Positions 917 through 63,937 of a stretch of 64,000 nucleotides of DNA are shown here, piece by piece. This stretch comes from an uncultured Bacteroidales bacterium. GTDB taxonomy: Bacteria; Bacteroidota; Bacteroidia; Bacteroidales; Bacteroidaceae. The first letter of the stretch is position 1; every line of letters begins with the position of its first letter. The notes beneath the pieces were generated by a model, which was given only the letters and a program-made list of their open reading frames with translations, was not told the origin of the DNA and ran no database searches. The stretch covers positions 1 through 64,000 of the forward strand of contig CADAEK010000014.1 in NCBI GenBank assembly GCA_902786925.1. Direction: 5' to 3'. Both the position numbers and the translations under genes were made by a program.

Positions 917-924
917 TATATTTG
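917..924 (+). promoter_or_regulatory. Promoter -7 box for the DUF2027-like gene (TATATTTG)
   Basis: TATATTTGCA fits TAnnTTTG and lies 23 bases before the ATG at 948, which leaves a very short 5' leader. Confidence 0.7.
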
Positions 925-14235: not shown

Positions 14236-14271
14236 CAGCACCGAGGCGGCGCTTGCCATACGCCCGGTGTA

Positions 14272-14378
14272 GCAAATGTAACACACCCTGTGTAACATTT
14301 GTCACATACCGTGTGTTACAATTGTAACACGCCGTATGTAACACTTGTAACACAAGGCGAATCAATTTGTGTTACAAA
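14272..14378. repeat. GTGTTACA/TGTAACAC palindrome array, copy 1
   Basis: About six copies of TGTAACAC or its complement are packed in about 105 bases between the biotin carboxylase and biotin carrier genes. They include the perfect 18-base palindrome GTGTTACAATTGTAACAC (14313-14330). The same motif forms a second array at 35348-35469. It could bind a dimeric regulator or act as RNA hairpins inside the operon. Confidence 0.85.
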
Positions 14379-16535: not shown

Positions 16536-16543
16536 TAACTTTG
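16536..16543 (+). promoter_or_regulatory. Promoter for sufS (TAACTTTG with TTG 19 bases upstream)
   Basis: TAACTTTGCA with a TTG at 16514-16516, spaced 19 bases, fits the full Bacteroidetes promoter. Only 9 bases separate it from the ATG at 16553, so the mRNA has almost no leader. Confidence 0.78.
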
Positions 16544-16552
16544 CACTCCAAG

Positions 16553-17770
16553 ATGATGTACGACGTAAATAAAGTGCGCGAAGATTTCCCCATTCTTGCA
16601 CGGGAAGTGTATGGACGGCCATTGGTCTATCTGGACAATGGAGCCACTACACAAAAGCCCCGTCAAGTGGTGGAAGCCATGATGGATGAGTATTACAATG
16701 TGAATGCCAATGTCCATCGTGGTGTTCATTTTTTGTCGCAACAAGCCACAGACCTACACGAAGCCAGCAGAGAAACCGTGCGCAAGTTCATCAACGCGAA
16801 AAGCACGAACGAGATTGTCTTCACAAGGGGCACTACTGAGAGCATTAACCTGCTGGCATTCTCGCTGGGAGAGGCCATGGTGAAGGAAGGAGATGAAATT
16901 GTGGTGAGCGCCATGGAGCACCACTCCAACATCGTCCCATGGCAGATGTTGTGCGAGAGGAAAGGTGCAACGCTGCGTGTGATTCCGATGACAGATGAGG
17001 GCGAGCTGGAGCTGGAAGCGCTGGAGGAATTGCTCAATCAGCGCACAAGAATCGTATGCTGCACCCATGTCAGCAACGTGCTCGGCACTATCAATCCCGT
17101 GAAGCGGATCGTTGAAATCGTCCATGCTCACGGCATACCGGTGTTGATAGACGGCGCACAGTCAGTGCCACACATGCCCGTGGATGTGCAGGACATCGAC
17201 TGCGACTTCTTTGCCTTCTCTGGACACAAGGTTTACGGACCAACGGGAGTTGGCGTCCTGTATGGGAAAGAAGAGTGGCTGGAGAAACTGCCTCCTTATC
17301 AAGGCGGAGGAGAAATGATTAAGAACGTTTCGTGGGAACGGACGACATACAATGTACTTCCATACAAGTTTGAGGCCGGCACGCCCGACTATGTGGCAAC
17401 ACACGCCTTGGCCAAGGCTATAGAATATGTGACAGCGCTGGGCATGGACAACATTTATGCCCATGAGCAGGAACTCACACAATATGCTATAGAGCGCATG
17501 CAGCAGATTGAAGGAATGCGCATCATGGGAACAGCAACCCATCGCGACGCCGTCATCAGCTTTTTGGTAGGCGATATTCACCATCTAGACATGGGAACCC
17601 TGCTCGACAGACTCGGCATCGCCGTGAGAACAGGCCATCATTGCGCCGAACCACTCATGACACGACTGGGCATCAGCGGAACCGTGCGCGCCTCTTTCGG
17701 ACTCTACAACACAATGGAAGAAGTCAACACCCTCGTGGAAGGCATTGAGCGGGTCAGCAGAATGTTTTGA
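16553..17770 (+). CDS. sufS: Cysteine desulfurase SufS
   Basis: A PLP enzyme of the group II (SufS/CsdA) desulfurases, taking sulfur from cysteine for Fe-S cluster assembly. The start was moved to ATG 16553 (MMYDVNKVREDFP); the longer frame runs into the promoter. Marks are YLDNGATTQKP, the PLP-binding AMEHHSNIVPW, VLIDGAQSVPHMPVD, the Schiff-base lysine in FSGHKVYGPTGVG (about residue 225), and the catalytic cysteine in RTGHHCAEPLM (about 363). Length 405 is normal. The rest of the SUF system (sufB, sufC, sufD) is 11 kb away in its own cluster, so this gene has become separated. hisS follows after 46 bases with no own promoter box seen. Confidence 0.94.
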   Translation: MMYDVNKVREDFPILAREVYGRPLVYLDNGATTQKPRQVVEAMMDEYYNVNANVHRGVHFLSQQATDLHEASRETVRKFINAKSTNEIVFTRGTTESINLLAFSLGEAMVKEGDEIVVSAMEHHSNIVPWQMLCERKGATLRVIPMTDEGELELEALEELLNQRTRIVCCTHVSNVLGTINPVKRIVEIVHAHGIPVLIDGAQSVPHMPVDVQDIDCDFFAFSGHKVYGPTGVGVLYGKEEWLEKLPPYQGGGEMIKNVSWERTTYNVLPYKFEAGTPDYVATHALAKAIEYVTALGMDNIYAHEQELTQYAIERMQQIEGMRIMGTATHRDAVISFLVGDIHHLDMGTLLDRLGIAVRTGHHCAEPLMTRLGISGTVRASFGLYNTMEEVNTLVEGIERVSRMF

Positions 17771-35347: not shown

Positions 35348-35469
35348 GTGCCACGTTTGTAACACACTTTGGCGCAAGAAGTGTTACAAGTGTAACACAC
35401 GGTGTGTTACACTTGTAACATAGTGTGTGTGACAAATGTTACACAGAGTGTGTTACATCTGTTACACAC
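35348..35469. repeat. GTGTTACA/TGTAACAC palindrome array, copy 2
   Basis: About eight TGTTACA/TGTAACA motifs in both orientations are packed into 120 bases, including GTGTTACAAGTGTAACAC at 35381-35398. The motif is shared with the array at 14272-14378. Confidence 0.85.
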
Positions 35470-44439: not shown

Positions 44440-44480
44440 AACAAGAATAGGCACGAAAGAGATTCGTGCCTATTCTTGTT
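44440..44480. terminator. Bidirectional terminator between the Ig-like lipoprotein gene and xerD
   Basis: A 17-bp perfect stem (AACAAGAATAGGCACGA and complement) with a 7-base loop spans the junction. It overlaps the last codons of xerD (stop at 44470). Confidence 0.82.
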
Positions 44481-45387
44481 TCCTAATATTACGAGGATGG
44501 TGCAGCAAGATTTCCTCACGCAGATGCGAGGTGTCAATATGCGTGTAGATTTGAGTGGTAGCGATTGACTCATGCCCCAACATGGCTTGGATGGCACGCA
44601 GATTGGCCCCACCCTCCAAGAGCGACGTAGCAAACGAATGGCGGAACGTGTGGGGCGAAACAGTCTTCTTGATGCCCGCCTTCGCCACCAAGTCTTTAAT
44701 AATCATGAACACCATCACACGCGTCAAGGGCTTCTTTCTGCGGAAACTCAGAAACACATAATCTTGGTATTCAGGCGGGATGTCCAAAAGGTTTCTGTCC
44801 CGGAAATACAGCTGCAACTCATGGACAGCCTTCTCAGAGATAGGCACCAAACGCTGTTTAGAGCCCTTTCCCTCTACTCTGATGAACATTTCATCAAGAA
44901 ACAAGCCACTGAGTTTCAAATCAATCAGCTCACTCACACGCAAGCCGCAACTGAACAGCGTCTCTATCATTGCCTTGTTGCGCTGTCCCACCTGCTGGCT
45001 CAAGTCTATCACAGATTCGATGGCATCAATCTCATCGACCGACAACACATCGGGCAGATGCTGAGGCCTTTTCGGGAACTCCATCAACTCCGTCGGATTG
45101 GTCTCCAGCACATCGCCCAGCACCAGAAAGTGGTAGAAACTGCGTACACCAGACAAGATGCGCGACAACGACGTGGATGAGATGCCCACATCCACCATCA
45201 TGGAAGCGAAGTGATGCAAGTCCTCCAGTTCCACCTGCGTGAAGTCCTTCCCCTCTCCCTTGATAAAGGTGAGGAACTTGTCCAAGTCTCGCATATACGC
45301 ATCAATCGTATTGGCAGAACTTGCTTTCTCCAACTTCAAATACTGATAATATCGCCGCACAAGGCGTTGCTGTTCTTGTTGTTCCAT
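44470..45387 (-). CDS. xerD: Tyrosine recombinase XerD
   Basis: A site-specific recombinase that resolves chromosome dimers at dif with XerC. The catalytic set is complete: Arg150 (SCGLRVSEL), Lys175 (GKGSKQRL), His246 and Arg249 (SPHTFRHSFATS), His272 (LGHES) and Tyr281 (QIYTHID). Length 305 fits XerD. The start was set at ATG 45387 (MEQQEQQRL). The promoter box lies at 45393-45400, so the mRNA may start at or within a base or two of the ATG, that is, almost leaderless. Confidence 0.93.
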   Translation of the reverse strand: MEQQEQQRLVRRYYQYLKLEKASSANTIDAYMRDLDKFLTFIKGEGKDFTQVELEDLHHFASMMVDVGISSTSLSRILSGVRSFYHFLVLGDVLETNPTELMEFPKRPQHLPDVLSVDEIDAIESVIDLSQQVGQRNKAMIETLFSCGLRVSELIDLKLSGLFLDEMFIRVEGKGSKQRLVPISEKAVHELQLYFRDRNLLDIPPEYQDYVFLSFRRKKPLTRVMVFMIIKDLVAKAGIKKTVSPHTFRHSFATSLLEGGANLRAIQAMLGHESIATTQIYTHIDTSHLREEILLHHPRNIRKQE

Positions 45388-45392
45388 CGTCA

Positions 45393-45400
45393 CAAAGGTA
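45393..45400 (-). promoter_or_regulatory. Promoter -7 box for xerD (TACCTTTG)
   Basis: TACCTTTGTG on the minus strand ends only six bases before the chosen ATG. Confidence 0.7.
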
Positions 45401-45516
45401 GGAAATAATGAGGAATGAGGAACGAGGAATGAGGAATTAAATGTTTAATTTGGTGAAAAAACTATATGAATGCTAAAAATCCCAATCGCTAATTCCCAAT
45501 TCCTAATTAAATCACT

Positions 45517-45524
45517 TACCTTTG
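45517..45524 (+). promoter_or_regulatory. Promoter -7 box for the S41 protease operon (TACCTTTG)
   Basis: TACCTTTGCA is 21 bases before the ATG at 45546. Confidence 0.78.
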
Positions 45525-45545: not shown

Positions 45546-47207
45546 ATGAAGAAGACTTTATTCACATGGTTGGCCATCCTGGCCTTCCTGCCACTGAGTG
45601 CACAGACGGAGCACAATTTCGACGTCTCTAAATATCTTGACCTCTTCAATACCATCTACCGGCAACTCGACATCTTTTATGTCGATTCTCTGAAAGCAGA
45701 CAAACTGGTACGTGTAGGTATTGACGCCATCACACGCGAGCTGGACCTCTACACCCAATTCTATCCCGAAGAGAATGTCAGCGAACTGAAAATGATGACA
45801 ACAGGCAAATATGGCGGCATTGGCTCCATCATCCGCATGCGTAAAGACTCTACCGTCATCATCCACGAACCCTATCCCGATATGCCAGCTGCAGAAGTAG
45901 GCTTGCAGGTAGGAGACGTGATGCTGAAGATAGACAATAAAGACCTCAAGGGGCTCAGCACAGCGGAGGTGAGTGACTTGCTCCGCGGAGAACCTGGCAC
46001 CACCTTCATGCTGCGCATCCAGCGCCCTGGCGAGAAGAAGCCACGCGACTTCAAAATCACTCGCCGCAGCATCAAGAAATCTGCTTTCCCTTATGTCGGA
46101 ATGGTCAGCAATGAAGTCGGCTACATCTTCCTCTCCGAGTTTACTGAGGGCTGTGCAAAAGATATGCGCAAGGCCATCATCTCCCTCAAGGAGAAGGGAG
46201 CCAAGCGCCTTGTGCTCGACCTGCGTGGCAATGGCGGCGGTCTGCTCAGCGAGGCCGTTGACATCGTCAACCTTTTCGTGCCCAAAGGACTGAAGATTGT
46301 GGAGACCCGAGGCAAGCACCTCGCAGCCCACTTTGCTTACAATACTAACAGCGAACCACTCGACACAGACATTCCACTTGCCGTTCTCGTCAACGAAGAG
46401 ACCGCCAGTGCAGCCGAAATTGTCTCTGGTTCTCTGCAAGACCTTGACCGCGCCGTGGTGGTGGGCTGTGACACCTATGGAAAAGGACTGGTGCAGAGCT
46501 CACGCGAGCTCCCTTACAACAGCAGCCTCAAACTCACTACAGCCAAGTACTACCTTCCTTCTGGACGCTGCATCCAGAAGGTGGACTACAAGCGTTTGCG
46601 CGAAGCAGCAGAGATTTATCGCTCAACAGGCAAGCGCATAGACACCACTACCGACAGTCTCAAGCAGCATTTCCGCACAGCTGGTGGACGTGACGTGACT
46701 GAAGGAAGCGGCATTCATCCTGATTTTGAAGTGAAGCATGACACGGTTTCCAACCTCATCTTCTACCTCTCCACTGATGACGTCCTCATCGATTGGGGCA
46801 CACGCTACTTCCAAAGCCACCCATCCATCCCTGCCGTCAGCGAATTTGCCATTACCGACGAAGACTATGAGGACTTCAAGAAGATGGTCAAAGAGAGCAA
46901 CTTCGAGTACGACCGTCAAAGTGGCAAACGCCTTGAAGACCTGAAGAAAGCAGCCCAGTTCGAAGGCTACTACGACGATGCCAAAGCAGAGTTCGATGCC
47001 CTTGAGAAGAAGCTCGCCCACAATCTTGACCGCGAGATGGAGCATCAGCAGAAAGACATTCGCCGTCTCATGGCCAACGAAGTCATCAAGCGCTACTACT
47101 ACCAGGCAGGCATCGTGGAAGAGACGCTCAAGGATGACGACGACCTGAAACGTGCCCTTGAAGTGCTCAACAACGAAAGTGAATACAACAAAGCATTAGG
47201 AAAATGA
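45546..47207 (+). CDS. S41-family C-terminal processing peptidase
   Basis: A periplasmic serine protease of the CtpA/Prc type. The signal peptide (MKKTLFTWLAILAFLPLSAQ) is followed by a helical region, a PDZ domain (about residues 80-170, GGIGSIIRMRKDSTVI, VGDVMLKIDNKDLKG) and the S41 core with LVLDLRGNGGG (about 222), the nucleophile Ser288 in NEETASAAEIVSG and the general base Lys313 in DTYGKGLVQ. A C-terminal helical extension of about 170 residues (from DVLIDWGTRYF on) is typical of Bacteroidetes members. Its stop overlaps the next gene by four bases. Confidence 0.93.
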   Translation: MKKTLFTWLAILAFLPLSAQTEHNFDVSKYLDLFNTIYRQLDIFYVDSLKADKLVRVGIDAITRELDLYTQFYPEENVSELKMMTTGKYGGIGSIIRMRKDSTVIIHEPYPDMPAAEVGLQVGDVMLKIDNKDLKGLSTAEVSDLLRGEPGTTFMLRIQRPGEKKPRDFKITRRSIKKSAFPYVGMVSNEVGYIFLSEFTEGCAKDMRKAIISLKEKGAKRLVLDLRGNGGGLLSEAVDIVNLFVPKGLKIVETRGKHLAAHFAYNTNSEPLDTDIPLAVLVNEETASAAEIVSGSLQDLDRAVVVGCDTYGKGLVQSSRELPYNSSLKLTTAKYYLPSGRCIQKVDYKRLREAAEIYRSTGKRIDTTTDSLKQHFRTAGGRDVTEGSGIHPDFEVKHDTVSNLIFYLSTDDVLIDWGTRYFQSHPSIPAVSEFAITDEDYEDFKKMVKESNFEYDRQSGKRLEDLKKAAQFEGYYDDAKAEFDALEKKLAHNLDREMEHQQKDIRRLMANEVIKRYYYQAGIVEETLKDDDDLKRALEVLNNESEYNKALGK

Positions 47208-48297: not shown

Positions 48298-48399
48298 TAT
48301 TATTATGTCTTTTTCTTTTGCGACACCGATGTTCGTTCGCGTTCCGCTTCGCCTGCGTCCCTGGGCTCGCAGAATGCTACTGCCATCCCCCGCTTATTC

Positions 48400-48421
48400 G
48401 AAAAAGACACTCAGTCTTTTT
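48400..48421 (-). terminator. Terminator hairpin inside repeat unit 1
   Basis: AAAAAGAC/GTCTTTTT with a 5-base loop. It is the second terminator met by transcripts leaving carB. Confidence 0.6.
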
Positions 48422-48507
48422 CTTTTGCGACACCGATGTTCGTTCGCGTTCCGCTTCGCCTGCGTTCCTGGGCTCGCAGAACGCTACTGCCATCCCCCGC
48501 TTATTCG

Positions 48508-48528
48508 AAAAAGACACTCAGTCTTTTT
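48508..48528 (-). terminator. Terminator hairpin of carB
   Basis: AAAAAGAC/GTCTTTTT with a 5-base loop starts three bases after the carB stop codon on the minus strand. Confidence 0.7.
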
Positions 48529-48530
48529 CT

Positions 48531-51500
48531 TTAAGCGTCATATTCCTGCCATGACTTAATCTGCAGGTCCTCCATACCCAGCTGGCAGAAGGCCTCGATG
48601 AAGGCAGATGCCAGGCGAGCATTGGTGATGAGCGGAATGTTGTGGTCGATGGCACCACGACGGATGCGGTAACCATTAGTCAGCTCGCGCTTCGTGTGGT
48701 TCTTAGGAATGTTGACGATGAGGTCGAACTTGTGGTCCGCAATCATCTTCATCACATTTGGCTTGTCGCTGTTCTCCTCGTCTGGCCATGCAACGGCTGT
48801 AGCCTTCACATTGTTGTCGTTGAGGAACTTCGCAGTACCCTCGCTTGCGCAAATGGTGTAGCCCTTTGCCACGAGTGCACGTGCGGCGTCAAGCATAGCC
48901 ACCTTCTCCTTCGTGCCACCAGAAGAAATCATGATAGCCTTGTCCTTAGAAGGAATCTTGTAGCCAGTAGCGATGAGAGAGTTGAGCAATGCCTCTTCGT
49001 AGGTATCACCCATACAGCCTACCTCACCAGTAGAGCTCATGTCCACACCCAGCACAGGGTCAGCATTCTGCAGACGAGCGAATGAGAACTGACTGGCCTT
49101 CACACCCATGCGGTCGATGTCGAACTCGCTCTTGTCTGGCTTCTCGTATGGAGCATCGAGCATGATGCGAGTAGCGGTGTCGATGAAGTTGCGCTTCAGC
49201 ACCTTGCTGACGAATGGGAACGAACGTGAAGCACGGAGGTTACACTCGATAACCTTCACATCACGACCCTTAGCCAAGTACTGGATATTGAATGGACCAG
49301 AGATGTTCAGCTCCTTCGCAATAGCGCGGCTGATCTTCTTAATCTGACGGATAGTAGCGAAGCTGATTTGCTGAGCAGGGAACACCATGGTAGCGTCACC
49401 AGAGTGCACACCAGCAAACTCAACGTGCTCGGAGATAGCGTATTCAACCACCTCACCATTCTTAGCCACAGCGTCGAATTCCACCTCGTTGGTTTCCTGC
49501 ATGAACTGAGAGATAACCACAGGATACTCCTTGCTGACCTCGCTGGCCATCTGCAGGAAGCGCTCCAGTTCCTCATAGTCGTAGCATACGTTCATGGCAG
49601 CACCAGAGAGCACGTACGAAGGACGCACGAGCACTGGGAAGCCTACACGCTCCACGAATGCCTTCACGTCGTCCATGCTGGTCAGGGCGCTCCACTGAGG
49701 CTGGTCAATACCCAGCTGGTCGAGCATAGCAGAGAACTTGTTGCGGTTCTCAGCGCGGTCAATGCTGACAGGGCTTGTACCCAAGATTGGCACACTCTGA
49801 CGGTGCAGCTTCATAGCCAGGTTATTAGGAATCTGACCACCCACTGAGACAATCACGCCACGTGGATTCTCCAAGTCAATCACGTCAAGCACACGCTCGA
49901 AGGAGAGCTCGTCGAAGTAGAGGCGGTCACACATGTCATAGTCCGTTGACACAGTCTCAGGGTTATAGTTAATCATGATGCTCTTGTAGCCCAACTTTCT
50001 GGCAGTTGTGATAGCATTCACAGAGCACCAGTCAAACTCTACAGAAGAACCGATGCGGTAAGCACCAGAACCGAGCACAACGACAGACTTCTCGTGAGCG
50101 TAGTAGTTCACGTCATATCCCTCCACAGCATAAGTCATGTAGAGATAGTTCGTCAAGTCTGGGTGTTCGCTGGCCACAGTTGGGATGCGCTTCACAGCAG
50201 GCAGAATGCCCAGCTTCTTGCGGTGAGCACGCACAGCAAGATTCTCGCGCTCCATGTTCTCAGCAGCCTCCTTGCGCACGAAGCGTGCAATCTGGAAGTC
50301 AGAGAAGCCCCAAACCTTAGCCTGACGCATCACGTCAGCAGGGATATCCTCCACAGCGTTGTATGTTTCCAGCTTGTGCTTATAGTCAACGATATTCTTC
50401 AGACGCTCGATGAACCAAGGGTCAATCTTTGTCAGTTCCACGATGCGGTCAATGGTGTAACCCTCTTCCAGAGCCTGAGCAATTGCGAAGATACGCAAGT
50501 CAGTTGGGTTAGCCAACTCATCGTCCAGGTTGTCGAACTTTGTGTGGTCGTTGCCCACAAAGCCGTGCATACCCTGGCCAATCATACGGAGACCCTTCTG
50601 GATGAGTTCCTCGAAAGTGCGGCCAATAGACATGATTTCGCCCACAGACTTCATGCTTGAACCAATCTTGCGGCTCACACCCACAAACTTCGTCAAGTCC
50701 CAACGTGGAATCTTACAGATGAGGTAATCGAGAGAAGGAGCCACATACGCAGAGTTTGTAGTGCCCATCTCGCCAATCTGATCGAGCGTGTAGCCCAGCG
50801 CAATCTTAGCAGCCACGAAAGCGAGAGGATAACCAGTAGCCTTCGAAGCCAAAGCAGAAGAACGGCTCAGACGCGCGTTAATCTCAATGATGCGGTAGTC
50901 GTTAGTCACCGCGTTGAAAGCGAACTGGATGTTGCACTCACCCACGATGTTCAAGTGGCGAACACACTTAATAGTGATATCCTGCAGCATCTTCACCTGC
51001 TCCTCAGAGAGTGAGCAAGTTGGAGCCACCACGATACTCTCACCCGTGTGGATGCCCAGTGGGTCGAAGTTCTCCATCGAAGCCACAGTGAAGCAGTGGT
51101 CATTCGCGTCGCGGATGCACTCAAACTCAATTTCCTTCCAGCCCTTCAGGCTCTCCTCCACCAGCACCTGGGGAGCGAAAGTGAAGGCAGACTCAGCAAC
51201 CTGCTTAAAGGTCTCCTCGTCAGGACAAACACCTGAACCCAGACCACCCAGCGCATAAGCTGAACGAATCATGATAGGATAGCCAATGCGACGAGCTGTA
51301 GCAATAGCGTCCTCCATTGTCTCGCAAGCCTGGCTTACGGGCACCTTCAGGTTCACCTTATTCAGCTCCTTCACGAAGAGGTCGCGGTCCTCCGTGTTCA
51401 TGATAGCCTCTACGCTCGTACCCAGCACCTCTACGCCATACTCCTTCAGGATGCCCTTCTGGAACAGCTCCGTGCCGCAGTTCAGCGCCGTCTGTCCGCC

Positions 51501-58163: not shown

Positions 58164-58243
58164 AGACCCTCTCACTCCTAACTCCTCACTCCTCACTCCT
58201 CACTCCTAACTCCTCACTCCTAACTCCTAACTCCTAACTCAAA
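58164..58243. repeat. CTCCTAACTCCTCACT microsatellite-like spacer
   Basis: Ten or more copies of CTCCTCA or CTCCTAA follow one another between the GH53 and esterase genes. The same motif recurs at 62720-62790 and, as its complement, near 61685-61735 and 45405-45437. Confidence 0.85.
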
Positions 58244-58253
58244 AAAATAAACA

Positions 58254-59867
58254 ATGAGACAATTACTAACTACAGCTTTACTATTCCTGTTGACGCTCTC
58301 CGTGACAGCACAGACACAAGAGAAAAAAATCACTGTGACAGAGAACATCGCCTATCGCACAGATGTGGGACCCAGCACCGTGCTTGACCTCGCACAGCCT
58401 CAGTTCGGTCCTCAAACCAATCGCCCAGCCATCCTCATCATTCACGGTGGAGGATGGAGCGCAGGCTCAAAAAACGATATGGTCTATCGCACCCTCATGA
58501 TTGACTATGCCCTGAAAGGCTATGTGGTCTGCAACATGAACTACCGGCTCACACAAGAGGCACCGCTTCCAGCCTGCATCGAAGACGTGCGGTGCGCCAT
58601 CCGCTGGATGAAAGCACACGCACAGCAGTTGGGCATTGACCCTCAGCGCATTGGCACCTATGGCCACTCCGCTGGTGGACACCTCTCCCTCATGGCAGGT
58701 GTGGCGGCAGAGAGCAAAGCCTTTGCTGACGATAAAGACCCCTGGAAGCAATACGACTGCACCGTAGCCTGTGCCGCTGGTGGTGCGCCTCCCACAGAGA
58801 TAGGCCGTGCTGGAGCATGGGCAGAACACACCGAGTGGTGGCCCATTGGCTACATTGGCAAGAGCAAGACACCCTTCCTCGTGTTGCAGGGTGGAGAAGA
58901 CCCTGTTGTAAGGCCCAATCTCACCGAAGACTGGGTTCTGAAGATGCAGCGTGCAGGCTCCGCAGTCGATTATGTCAAAGTGCATGGACAGCACGGCGTG
59001 GCCTTCGACCAGCAGTTAGAGTTCACTCGTCCTGCCATGGATGCCTTCTATGCCCGCCACCTGAAGCACGAAGACCCCACCGTCTCCTTCGAGCAGATGA
59101 AGGTCGTTGAGTTCGGTGGCAGCGGTCCGCACAAGGCTGTAGCCGTGCGCGAGAAGTCACTCTCCGATTTTGTGGTCTATCGCCCCATGATGATGAGGGA
59201 GAAAATGCCCGTGCTCATCTTCTGCAACGGAGGCTGCATGGACACCAGCATTGGCTACGAGAACATGCTCTCCGACATTGCCTCCTACGGCTACATCGTT
59301 GTGGCGATAGGCGAACTGCAGATGCTGGCCCAACACGAGAAAGACCAGCACACCCCCTCGTCGATGGTTCAGAAGGCACTCAACTGGATATGCCATCCCG
59401 AATCCCCTTATTATAACTATATAGACACTGATAAAATTGCAGCTGCCGGACATTCTTGCGGCGGTGCCCAGGTGCTGGCCAATGCATCCGACCCACGACT
59501 GAAAACCTACTTCATCCTCAATGCAGGCATGGGACAGATCACCATGGCAGACGCCAGCGCAAAATCGCTTAAGAACCTCCATGGCCCCATCCTCTACCTT
59601 GTGGGCGGCACCACCGATGTAGCTTGGCAAAACGCCCAAGCCGATTACAAAGCCATCAAGCGCGTGCCCGTCGTGCTGGCCGACAACACCCAGAGCGGCC
59701 ACGGCGGCACCTACGAGCAGCCCAATGGCGGCGCCAATGCACGCATGGTCCGTGCCTGGCTCGACTGGCAGTTCAAAGACAGGAAAGAAAACGAGACCCT
59801 CTTCATAGGTGGCAACCTCACCGGCTATGAAGGCTTCACCATCAAGCACAAAAACTATAAGAAGTAA
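58254..59867 (+). CDS. Secreted double alpha/beta-hydrolase, likely carbohydrate esterase
   Basis: The 537-residue protein has a signal peptide (end SVTAQ) and two alpha/beta-hydrolase domains in one chain. Domain 1 (about 30-275) has the oxyanion segment IIHGGGWSAGS, nucleophile Ser139 in GHSAGGH, Asp216 in GGEDPVV and His247 in GQHGVAF. It resembles the BD-FAE type acetyl or feruloyl esterases. Domain 2 (about 300-515) has IFCNGGCMDTS and nucleophile Ser401 in GHSCGGAQ with a likely His in SGHGGT. Domain 2 is close to poorly described Bacteroidetes esterase-like proteins. Both sets of residues look complete. Context with galactanase and arabinanase suggests removal of acetyl or feruloyl groups from pectin side chains. 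Confidence 0.8.
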   Translation: MRQLLTTALLFLLTLSVTAQTQEKKITVTENIAYRTDVGPSTVLDLAQPQFGPQTNRPAILIIHGGGWSAGSKNDMVYRTLMIDYALKGYVVCNMNYRLTQEAPLPACIEDVRCAIRWMKAHAQQLGIDPQRIGTYGHSAGGHLSLMAGVAAESKAFADDKDPWKQYDCTVACAAGGAPPTEIGRAGAWAEHTEWWPIGYIGKSKTPFLVLQGGEDPVVRPNLTEDWVLKMQRAGSAVDYVKVHGQHGVAFDQQLEFTRPAMDAFYARHLKHEDPTVSFEQMKVVEFGGSGPHKAVAVREKSLSDFVVYRPMMMREKMPVLIFCNGGCMDTSIGYENMLSDIASYGYIVVAIGELQMLAQHEKDQHTPSSMVQKALNWICHPESPYYNYIDTDKIAAAGHSCGGAQVLANASDPRLKTYFILNAGMGQITMADASAKSLKNLHGPILYLVGGTTDVAWQNAQADYKAIKRVPVVLADNTQSGHGGTYEQPNGGANARMVRAWLDWQFKDRKENETLFIGGNLTGYEGFTIKHKNYKK

Positions 59868-60120
59868 GAAGGATGAGGGAAGAGGGAAGAGGGAAGAGGG
59901 ATGAGGGAAGAAGGAAGAGGGATGAAGGAAGAGCTAAGAGCTCAAACTTCCAACCTCAGACATCAGACCTCAGACATCAGACCTCAGACATCAGACATTT
60001 GACTTTTGACTTTTGACTTTTGACTTTTGACATTAGACATTTGACCTTCGCCCTCCGACATTAGACTTTTGACATTAGACATTAGTCATCAGACATCAAA
60101 CATCATACATCATACATCAA
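59868..60120. repeat. Low-complexity spacer between the esterase and GH43 genes
   Basis: It consists of three runs: GAAGAGGGAAGAGGGATGAGG units (59868-59935), CAGACATCAGACCTCAGACA units (59955-59998) and GACTTTTGACTTTTGACTTT units (60000-60085). No gene, promoter or terminator was recognised. Confidence 0.85.
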
Positions 60121-61191: not shown

Positions 61192-61972
61192 TAATTAGCT
61201 TCGCTGAGGTTTGGGCGCGACTCGGCATAGTTCAAGTGCACTTGACTCTGCTCTCGCTGCTACAAACGTTGACAATTGATAATTAGCCATGCGGGGTGTT
61301 TTTAATCTCACACAGATTACGTGGATGACACAGATTTTTGAGCCAAGAATGGCTCCCCTATTTCAGGGCCTTGCCCCAAGATTTTAAGGCTATCTGAATG
61401 ATTTCTTGCGAAGCAATAAAACACCCACAGAGCCGCCCAAACCTCTGCGAAGCTAACTATTATCTATTAACTATTAACTATTAACTAAACAAATCCCCTA
61501 CGGTGATGATAACAGATTGGTTGTCCTTCAAGACTTTGCCCAAAGGTATGAAAAGGTTTGATAGATTTCTTACAAAGCATTATTATAAACAAGAGCCGAG
61601 CGAGGCTCCCATCCAATCTGCATCATCCCCAAGGGGGCATTATTAAAAGGTCAATTGTCAACTGTCAACTGTCAATTTATAATTAGGAATTAGGAATGAG
61701 GAATGAGGAATTAGGAGTGAGGAATTAGGAATTAGGAGTTGTAGTTCAACTGTCAACTATCAACTGTCAACTATCAACTATCTAAGATTATCAATTGTCA
61801 ATTAAATTCGTTCCCTTTTTCGTTATAAATAGTCTTTTATTTTGTTCTTCGCTGATTTTCTCGTAATTTTGTGGCCCAAAGGGGGAGAAGTTCCTATTTA
61901 ACTTTACTTTTTACTCCAACACACTCTCCCTCTATCAATAGTTCAGAATTCTAAATTTAAGATATAGGTTTT
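61192..61972. other. Gene-free region of 781 bases, repeat-rich
   Basis: No coding frame was supported. Contents: TTGATAATTAG repeats at both ends of a short segment (61181-61288), CTATTAACTATTAACTATTAA (about 61458-61485), CAACTGTCAACTGTCAA and GAATTAGGAATGAGGAA arrays (61650-61735), a CAACTATCAACTGTCAACTA array (61745-61782), and the pyrH promoter (61864-61871). The module CAACTATCTAAGATTAT at 61776-61792 recurs at 63894-63910. Confidence 0.75.
61864..61871 (+). promoter_or_regulatory. Promoter -7 box for pyrH (TAATTTTG)
   Basis: TAATTTTGTG lies 102 bases before the pyrH ATG. Confidence 0.6.
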
Positions 61973-62683
61973 ATGGCAAAATTCAAGCGTATCTTGCTGA
62001 AACTCTCGGGTGAGAGTCTGGCTGGCGAACAGAAACAGGGTATTAACGTAGAAAGACTGAATGAGTATGCCCAGCAAATCAAAGAGATTGCAGAGATGGG
62101 GGTGCAGATTGGCATCGTCATCGGTGGTGGCAACATCTTCCGAGGACTGAGCGGAGCCGGCAAGGGCTTTGACCGTGTGAAGGGTGACCAGATGGGCATG
62201 TGCGCCACGGTGATTAACTCGCTGGCGCTGTCGAGCGCGCTGGGGGCTATCGGGCAGAAGAACCGTGTGCTGACAGCCATCCGCATGGAACCTATCGGTG
62301 AGTTCTACAGCAAGTGGAAGGCTATTGAGGCGATGGAGAATGGTGAGGTAGTCATCATGAGCGCTGGCACGGGCTCTCCTTACTTCACGACAGACACAGG
62401 CTCTTCGCTGCGCGGCATCGAGATTGAGGCAGACGTGATGCTGAAGGGCACGCGTGTGGATGGCGTCTATACGGCTGACCCCGAGAAGGACCCCACCGCG
62501 ACAAAGTATCATGACATCACTTACGCAGACGTGATTGCTCAGGGCTTGAAGGTGATGGATATCACAGCAACAGCGATGTGCATGCAGAACAACTTGCCTA
62601 TCTATGTGTTCAACATGGATGTGCTCGGCAACCTGAAGAAGGTGATGGAAGGCGAGGAGATTGGCACGCTGGTGCATAATTGA
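61973..62683 (+). CDS. pyrH: UMP kinase
   Basis: A bacterial-type (amino acid kinase fold) enzyme that phosphorylates UMP to UDP. The start FKRILLKLSGESLAGEQ, the IVIGGGNIFRG loop (about residue 48), GDQMGMCATVINSLAL (about 70) and TGSPYFTTDTGSSLRG (about 136) are all typical, and the length of 236 is standard. The Sel1-repeat gene follows on the same strand after a 115-base low-complexity spacer. Confidence 0.97.
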   Translation: MAKFKRILLKLSGESLAGEQKQGINVERLNEYAQQIKEIAEMGVQIGIVIGGGNIFRGLSGAGKGFDRVKGDQMGMCATVINSLALSSALGAIGQKNRVLTAIRMEPIGEFYSKWKAIEAMENGEVVIMSAGTGSPYFTTDTGSSLRGIEIEADVMLKGTRVDGVYTADPEKDPTATKYHDITYADVIAQGLKVMDITATAMCMQNNLPIYVFNMDVLGNLKKVMEGEEIGTLVHN

Positions 62684-62798
62684 AGTATGAAGGATGAGGG
62701 ATGAAGGATGAAGTAAACTCCTCACTCCTAATTCCTAATTCCTAACTCCTCACTCCTAATTCCTCACTCCTCACTCCTCACTCCTAACTCAAATAGAT
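62684..62798. repeat. Low-complexity spacer between pyrH and the Sel1 gene
   Basis: It starts with GAAGGATGAGGGATGAAGGAT units and continues with CTCCTCACTCCTAATTCCTAA units. The two halves are roughly complementary and could form a loose hairpin. Confidence 0.8.
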
Positions 62799-63543: not shown

Positions 63544-63937
63544 TATCTTGCGAAGCAATTCCCACCCGAAAGGCCGCGCAAGCCAACTGTCAACTGTCAA
63601 CTGTCAACTGTCAACTATCACCTTCGTCCCCACCGCCTGGCTCGAACCACTGGAATATAATTAATGAAAAATTAATGTTCCAATTAACGGCAAATTAATG
63701 TTGAATAAACATATAATTACCATCTAATCACTCCATATAATTAATCATTAAAATTCATGTCGAACCTTTCACTATTGAGCTGCTGACCGAGTATGACAAG
63801 AAAGACTTCAGACTTCAGACCTCCTCCCTCAGACATTAGACATTAGACCTCAGACCTCTCAATTATCAATTGTCAATTATCAACTATCAACTGTCAACTA
63901 TCTAAGATTATGAATTGTCAATTATGAATTAAATTTG

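Follow-up and report, generated by a model that had tools for sequence, protein, structure and literature searches.

xerD as a probable leaderless or near-leaderless gene, and member of a small conserved class, in a Bacteroidales genus

Bacteroidota have mRNAs without Shine-Dalgarno sequences (PMC6847099), and how ribosomes of this phylum find start codons is the subject of ongoing work. The RNA start lies 4 or 5 nt past the –7 box at many candidate promoters of F. johnsoniae; the –33 motif is far less conspicuous in this species, and leaders exceed 10 nt in 87% of predicted transcripts (PMC6847099). F. psychrophilum has the box at –12 to –5 and a reported leaderless share of 5.5% (PMC9723704), and 3.7% of 5′ UTRs are reported to be shorter than 10 nt in B. 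thetaiotaomicron (PMC7366714). A large-scale survey restricted to Pribnow-like boxes predicted leaderless genes in 1 of 37 Bacteroidetes/Chlorobi genomes and itself states that such genes may be undercounted in this group (PMC3160421).

Our window is a stretch of 64,000 nt from an uncultured Bacteroidales bacterium. On its minus strand lies xerD (44470..45387), which encodes a tyrosine recombinase of 305 aa from an ATG at 45387. The original prediction placed a promoter box very close to this ATG, and such a box is indeed present: TACCTTTG (45393..45400, minus strand), an exact match to the sigma-ABfr –7 sequence TAHHTTTG, ends 5 nt before the ATG, with the spacer TGACG (45388..45392, minus strand) in between. 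We place the box relative to the RNA start by analogy with the promoters described in PMC9723704. Because many F. johnsoniae RNAs begin 4–5 nt past the box, the xerD RNA is predicted to start at 45388, with a leader consisting of one G, or at 45387, the A of the ATG, with no leader; the spacing of 5 nt is compatible with the 1-nt version. The box thus sits as in a leaderless gene, where it would set transcription going at or near the start codon. By eye, no TTTG was seen near –33 of xerD, where the sequence is a TTCCTCA heptamer repeat. The next gene upstream, for an S41 C-terminal processing peptidase (45546..47207, plus strand; TIGR00225 above cut-off), is divergent, and hence xerD cannot be co-transcribed from an operon that precedes it in the same direction. 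The peptidase gene has its own –7 box, TACCTTTG (45517..45524, plus strand), at an ordinary spacing of 21 nt before the ATG. An A-rich coding start, which might serve as compensation, was not seen in the xerD of the window (60th percentile of 323 genes).

Among 25 genomes of the genus, our own included, the xerD orthologue was read in 23; one of the other two (G020) gave no match and the second (G024) only a distant one. The box lies 4–6 nt from the ATG in 20 of these 23 loci (4 nt in 7, 5 nt in 12, 6 nt in 1), and the exceptions have no box (L125, L131) or a spacing of 55 nt (L128). In L124, the ATG that gives a spacing of 5 precedes the homologous position by 36 nt. Orthologous loci share descent, and these counts are not independent. 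In the 20 loci with short spacing, of which 12 have a spacing of 5, the base before the ATG is T in 10, G in 5, C in 4 and A in 1, without the strong bias toward C seen in recF, phoH and the channel gene (see below). In genomes of other families, 15 of 16 had a XerD match, and none of the 7 loci read had a spacing of 6 or less. A XerD tree of 81 rows (the window plus 80 loci, possibly overlapping the 25-genome set) contains 28 rows with a spacing of 6 or less, all within one 32-row clade (support 100/92) that includes the two rows of Candidatus Minthosoma along with uncultured Bacteroidales, and three changes explain the short-spacing label. The remaining rows show a spacing of 7 (4 rows), a longer one (35 rows) or no box (14 rows); spacing is 16–68 in a 16-row clade with named Prevotella species. 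These data support a xerD spacing of 4–6 nt across the genus, with a predicted leader of about 0–2 nt.

It is conceivable that the xerD transcript starts further upstream, at another type of promoter or a degenerate box, and that the near box is secondary. Other promoter types do exist in Bacteroidota: a second motif is reported at 75 coding genes of B. thetaiotaomicron (PMC7366714), and in F. psychrophilum motifs SM4-6 account for 7% of the high-confidence starts (PMC9723704). Our scan of the 158-nt gap between xerD and its divergent neighbour covered the main box only, and in that scan TACCTTTG is the sole box at up to one mismatch. In addition, relatives keep the near box at 4–6 nt but differ in the sequence that precedes the box. 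Both observations argue against a more distant start, which we regard as unlikely.

The product of 44470–45387 is, judging by its model matches, a XerC/XerD-type recombinase. The XerD model TIGR02225 scores best, slightly under its curated cut-off (325.7 bits, cut-off 329.6), compared to 282.7 bits for the XerC model (cut-off 335.15); NF001399 is above its cut-off, and the domains PF00589 and PF02899 (Pfam) are present. The best match among solved structures is E. coli XerD (1a0p), in which query residue 10 is aligned with residue 6 of the chain. This N-terminal alignment with E. coli XerD, beginning at residue 10, makes the start codon at 45387 credible. Were it misplaced, an internal start would leave an ordinary leader, and errors of this kind do occur among our gene calls. 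For birA (L095), the apparent spacing of 7 is a start miscall, as orthologues start 9 nt later and have spacings of 16–18 in 17 of 25 loci; sufS is probably a further example (see below). L348 (spacing 3), where a second ATG in the same frame gives a spacing of 18, is also a likely miscall, judged by eye. In the case of xerD, both the alignment and the lack of any further ATG in frame within the first 11 codons of the window's gene speak against a misplaced start, making it very improbable.

The original prediction cited two more genes with short leaders. Upstream of sufS (cysteine desulfurase; 16553..17770, plus strand; TIGR01979, 604.3 bits, cut-off 475.1; PF00266), the box TAACTTTG (16536..16543, plus strand) is followed by 9 nt and then by ATGATG at 16553. 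The distance of 9 nt to the first ATG is therefore as claimed, with 12 nt to the second. In 16 of 22 same-genus sufS loci the nearest start is at the second Met, and the true start is probably this second ATG, 12 nt from the box. The sufS box is found in 8 of the 22 loci, with none within 120 nt in the other 14, and the short spacing is shared only by the window and its nearest relative. Our candidate for the DUF2027-like gene of the original prediction is the gene at 948 (169 aa), which we tentatively take from its N-terminus to be DUF2027/Smr-like; the region 948–1457 has no Pfam match. The box TATATTTG (917..924, plus strand) does lie 23 nt before the ATG at 948, an ordinary spacing that is close to the centre of the usual peak and is not short. 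A second ORF (1459–1842) follows directly, and 948–1842 is possibly a split gene. Of the three examples, only xerD is near-leaderless on the basis of its predicted layout.

A broader claim was that the organism tolerates almost no leader in general. We analyzed 864 kb of the genome (33%), in which 120 nt of upstream sequence was available for 611 genes; 381 of them had an ATG start and at least 40 nt free upstream, and 171 of the 381 had a box within 120 nt. The gene-start rule used here prefers ATG (an earlier rule missed xerD and sufS); box-to-ATG distances counted without gene calls gave too much background, and gene calls were used instead. Spacing was 0–9 nt in 14 of the 171 box-bearing genes, 10–15 in 3, 16–31 in 68, and 64 or more in 30. 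For 29 letter permutations of the box, the corresponding means were 0.86, 0.62, 1.83 and 5.52, and the maxima 5, 3, 10 and 16. Spacings of 0–9 nt are commoner here than expected by chance. The peak at 16–31 nt corresponds to leaders of roughly 11–27 nt. Only 6 of the 171 genes have a spacing of 4–5, and the 14 genes at 0–9 include at least two start miscalls, as indicated by orthologues (birA, probably sufS). These data are at odds with an organism-wide tolerance of almost no leader. As far as spacing can indicate, the leaderless layout is a small conserved class rather than the general rule, and most box-bearing genes have an ordinary leader.

Spacings of 0–9 nt were seen in 4 of 50 genes (G015 and G003 combined) and 1 of 17 genes (G008) in same-genus samples. 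For an order-level relative from another family (G026, 400 kb), the count was 2 of 88, near the permutation mean of 0.86, with none at 0–7. Few genes fall at 10–15 nt in any sample: 3 of 171 here (4 of 171 if sufS is moved to 12), 2 of 88 in G026, 1 of 50 in G015 and G003, and 0 of 17 in G008. This dip is suggestive only, as numbers are small and start calls imperfect. In 68 leadered promoters of the window's genome, pyrimidine–purine steps at positions 1/2 (n = 56) are mostly CA, TG or TA directly after the box. Further on, such steps are most frequent at 4/5 (n = 24) and 5/6 (n = 21), compared to 8 at 2/3, 13 at 3/4, 13 at 6/7, 15 at 7/8, 9 at 8/9 and 5 at 9/10. The maxima at 4/5 and 5/6 agree with the published box-to-start distance.

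The six genes of the genome sample with a spacing of 4–5 are xerD, recF (TIGR00611 above cut-off), phoH (PF02562), an ion-channel gene (PF00520) and the genes for a DUF4369 protein and a U32 peptidase, the last at spacing 5. We read orthologues in 25 same-genus genomes for recF, phoH, xerD and a control, olsH, and in 16 for the channel gene and an AraC-type gene. Spacing is 4–5 in 19 of 22 recF loci, 17 of 24 phoH loci and 11 of 15 channel-gene loci, with 19–29 in the other four of the last. Of the seven phoH loci without a box, two have a one-base variant of it in the same register, and in three TTG replaces ATG as the start codon. For olsH, spacing is 18–23 in 21 of 24 loci; one locus (L221) has two boxes, at 2 nt and at 21 nt. 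Orthologues of xerD, recF, phoH and the channel gene at spacing 4 have a pyrimidine before the ATG in 46 of 46 cases, 37 of them C; among 68 leadered genes, 14 have C there (Fisher P = 2e-10, with orthologues not independent). No such uniformity is seen at spacing 5 (C 11, G 4, T 4, A 1; n = 20). The pyrimidine at spacing 4 is consistent with a transcription start on the A of the ATG.

Other short spacings vary in their conservation. The AraC-type gene (PF12833; L108:1359-1772) has its box exactly 8 nt before the ATG in 10 of 13 same-genus loci, suggesting a conserved leader of about 3–4 nt; the bases cgaa precede its ATG in 11 of 13. Spacing at L093 is 4 in the window's genome, the nearest relative and L309 and is longer in most others, and at L099 it is 8, 8, 4, 8 and 23 across the loci read. 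L358 has two genes at spacing 9, and L106 has a spacing of 8, with no box close to the start in any of the three relatives read.

That sufS and the 23-nt gene dissolve on inspection, and that birA is a start miscall, might hint that the proximity at xerD is likewise a coincidence without function; yet boxes occur once per 3,982 strand-bases (434 in 1,728,000 in the 864-kb sample), giving an expectation of ∼0.0008 for a box 4–6 nt before a given start, and with the xerD spacing conserved in the genus and three further genes alike, chance is an exceedingly improbable explanation.

We consider it likely that xerD is expressed from a standard primary-sigma promoter as a leaderless or near-leaderless mRNA and belongs to a small class conserved in the genus. 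The position of the box and its conservation, the pyrimidine before the ATG at spacing 4 and the distribution over clades are observed; where the RNAs begin and how ribosomes enter is inferred. The standard Bacteroidota primary-sigma promoter would drive xerD and initiate on the start codon or one base before it; the mRNA would therefore be leaderless or nearly so, and its translation would probably proceed by recognition of the 5′-terminal AUG. In this small class, made up of xerD, recF, phoH and the ion-channel gene, the A of the ATG would double as transcription initiator. A more far-reaching idea is that the genus keeps these genome-maintenance and stress genes leaderless on purpose, that they use a separate initiation route (e.g. 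70S or altered ribosomes) unused by the leadered majority, and that leaders of ∼5–11 nt are avoided; we view this as speculative and rather doubtful.

The region upstream of xerD also contains a tandem array of the heptamer AATGAGG (4.4 copies; 45407..45437), 6 nt upstream of the box. Heptamer repeats have been described, e.g. TAACTGA in a few Bacteroidetes (PMC4679880). Further arrays with 7-bp units lie at 58171–58240, 59866–59933, 59956–60119, 61454–61487, 61650–61804, 62681–62790, 63584–63620 and 63803–63931, and the 7-bp arrays have many different unit sequences and are mostly intergenic. In the 864 kb of the window's genome, 45 of 72 arrays have period 7, 40 of the 45 being intergenic; the period-7 share is 23 of 32, 14 of 21 and 8 of 10 in same-genus genomes and 1 of 9 in 400 kb from another family. 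By eye, several relatives have different heptamer units at the same place upstream of xerD. As a general promoter part the arrays were rejected: 8 array–box pairs, from 6 of the 45 arrays, fall within 45 nt in the 864-kb sample, and there is no general link. Other repeats in the window include two direct 107-bp copies with a 98% match (48307–48532), located at the 3′ end of the gene for the carbamoyl-phosphate synthase large subunit, and two arrays of 23-bp period (14267–14354 and 35381–35468) that lie between called genes and whose units, GTGTAACAATTGTAACACACCGT and GTGTTACAAATGTTACACAGAGT, resemble each other.

Leaderless-looking orthologues in most of the genus, set against those in the other families read, which are mostly leadered or have no close box, provide natural matched pairs for studying 5′-AUG initiation in this phylum. 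Used as a query, the phylum's own box finds leaderless candidates directly. We found no literature linking leaderless mRNAs, xerD and recF together, and no further Bacteroidota leaderless map was recognised from titles (Bacteroides, Bacteroidetes, Prevotella, Bacteroidota, Porphyromonas gingivalis). Genes of the set may already be in supplementary lists of published maps of other species; the examples named for B. thetaiotaomicron in PMC7366714 (transposases, sensor kinases, transporters) do not include xerD, recF or phoH. Compared to sigma-ABfr promoters (–7 TAnnTTTG, –33 TTTG), xerD has the exact –7 box and differs in that its predicted initiator coincides with the start codon and in the –33 region, as noted above. 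In Actinobacteria and Deinococcus-Thermus, leaderless genes have a –10-type box just upstream of the ATG, a layout common to xerD. Their predicted leaderless means are 19.2% and 39.4%, respectively (PMC3160421), versus a few percent of the box-bearing genes here. The leaderless mRNAs known from Bacteroidota resemble ours in having the same box, the same presumed box-to-start distance and a similarly small share of genes; those were measured by RNA-seq, whereas the ones described here are predicted from sequence and conserved across a genus. Leaderless and near-leaderless mRNAs of Bacteroidota are thus already known, and the conservation of the set across a genus is the new addition.
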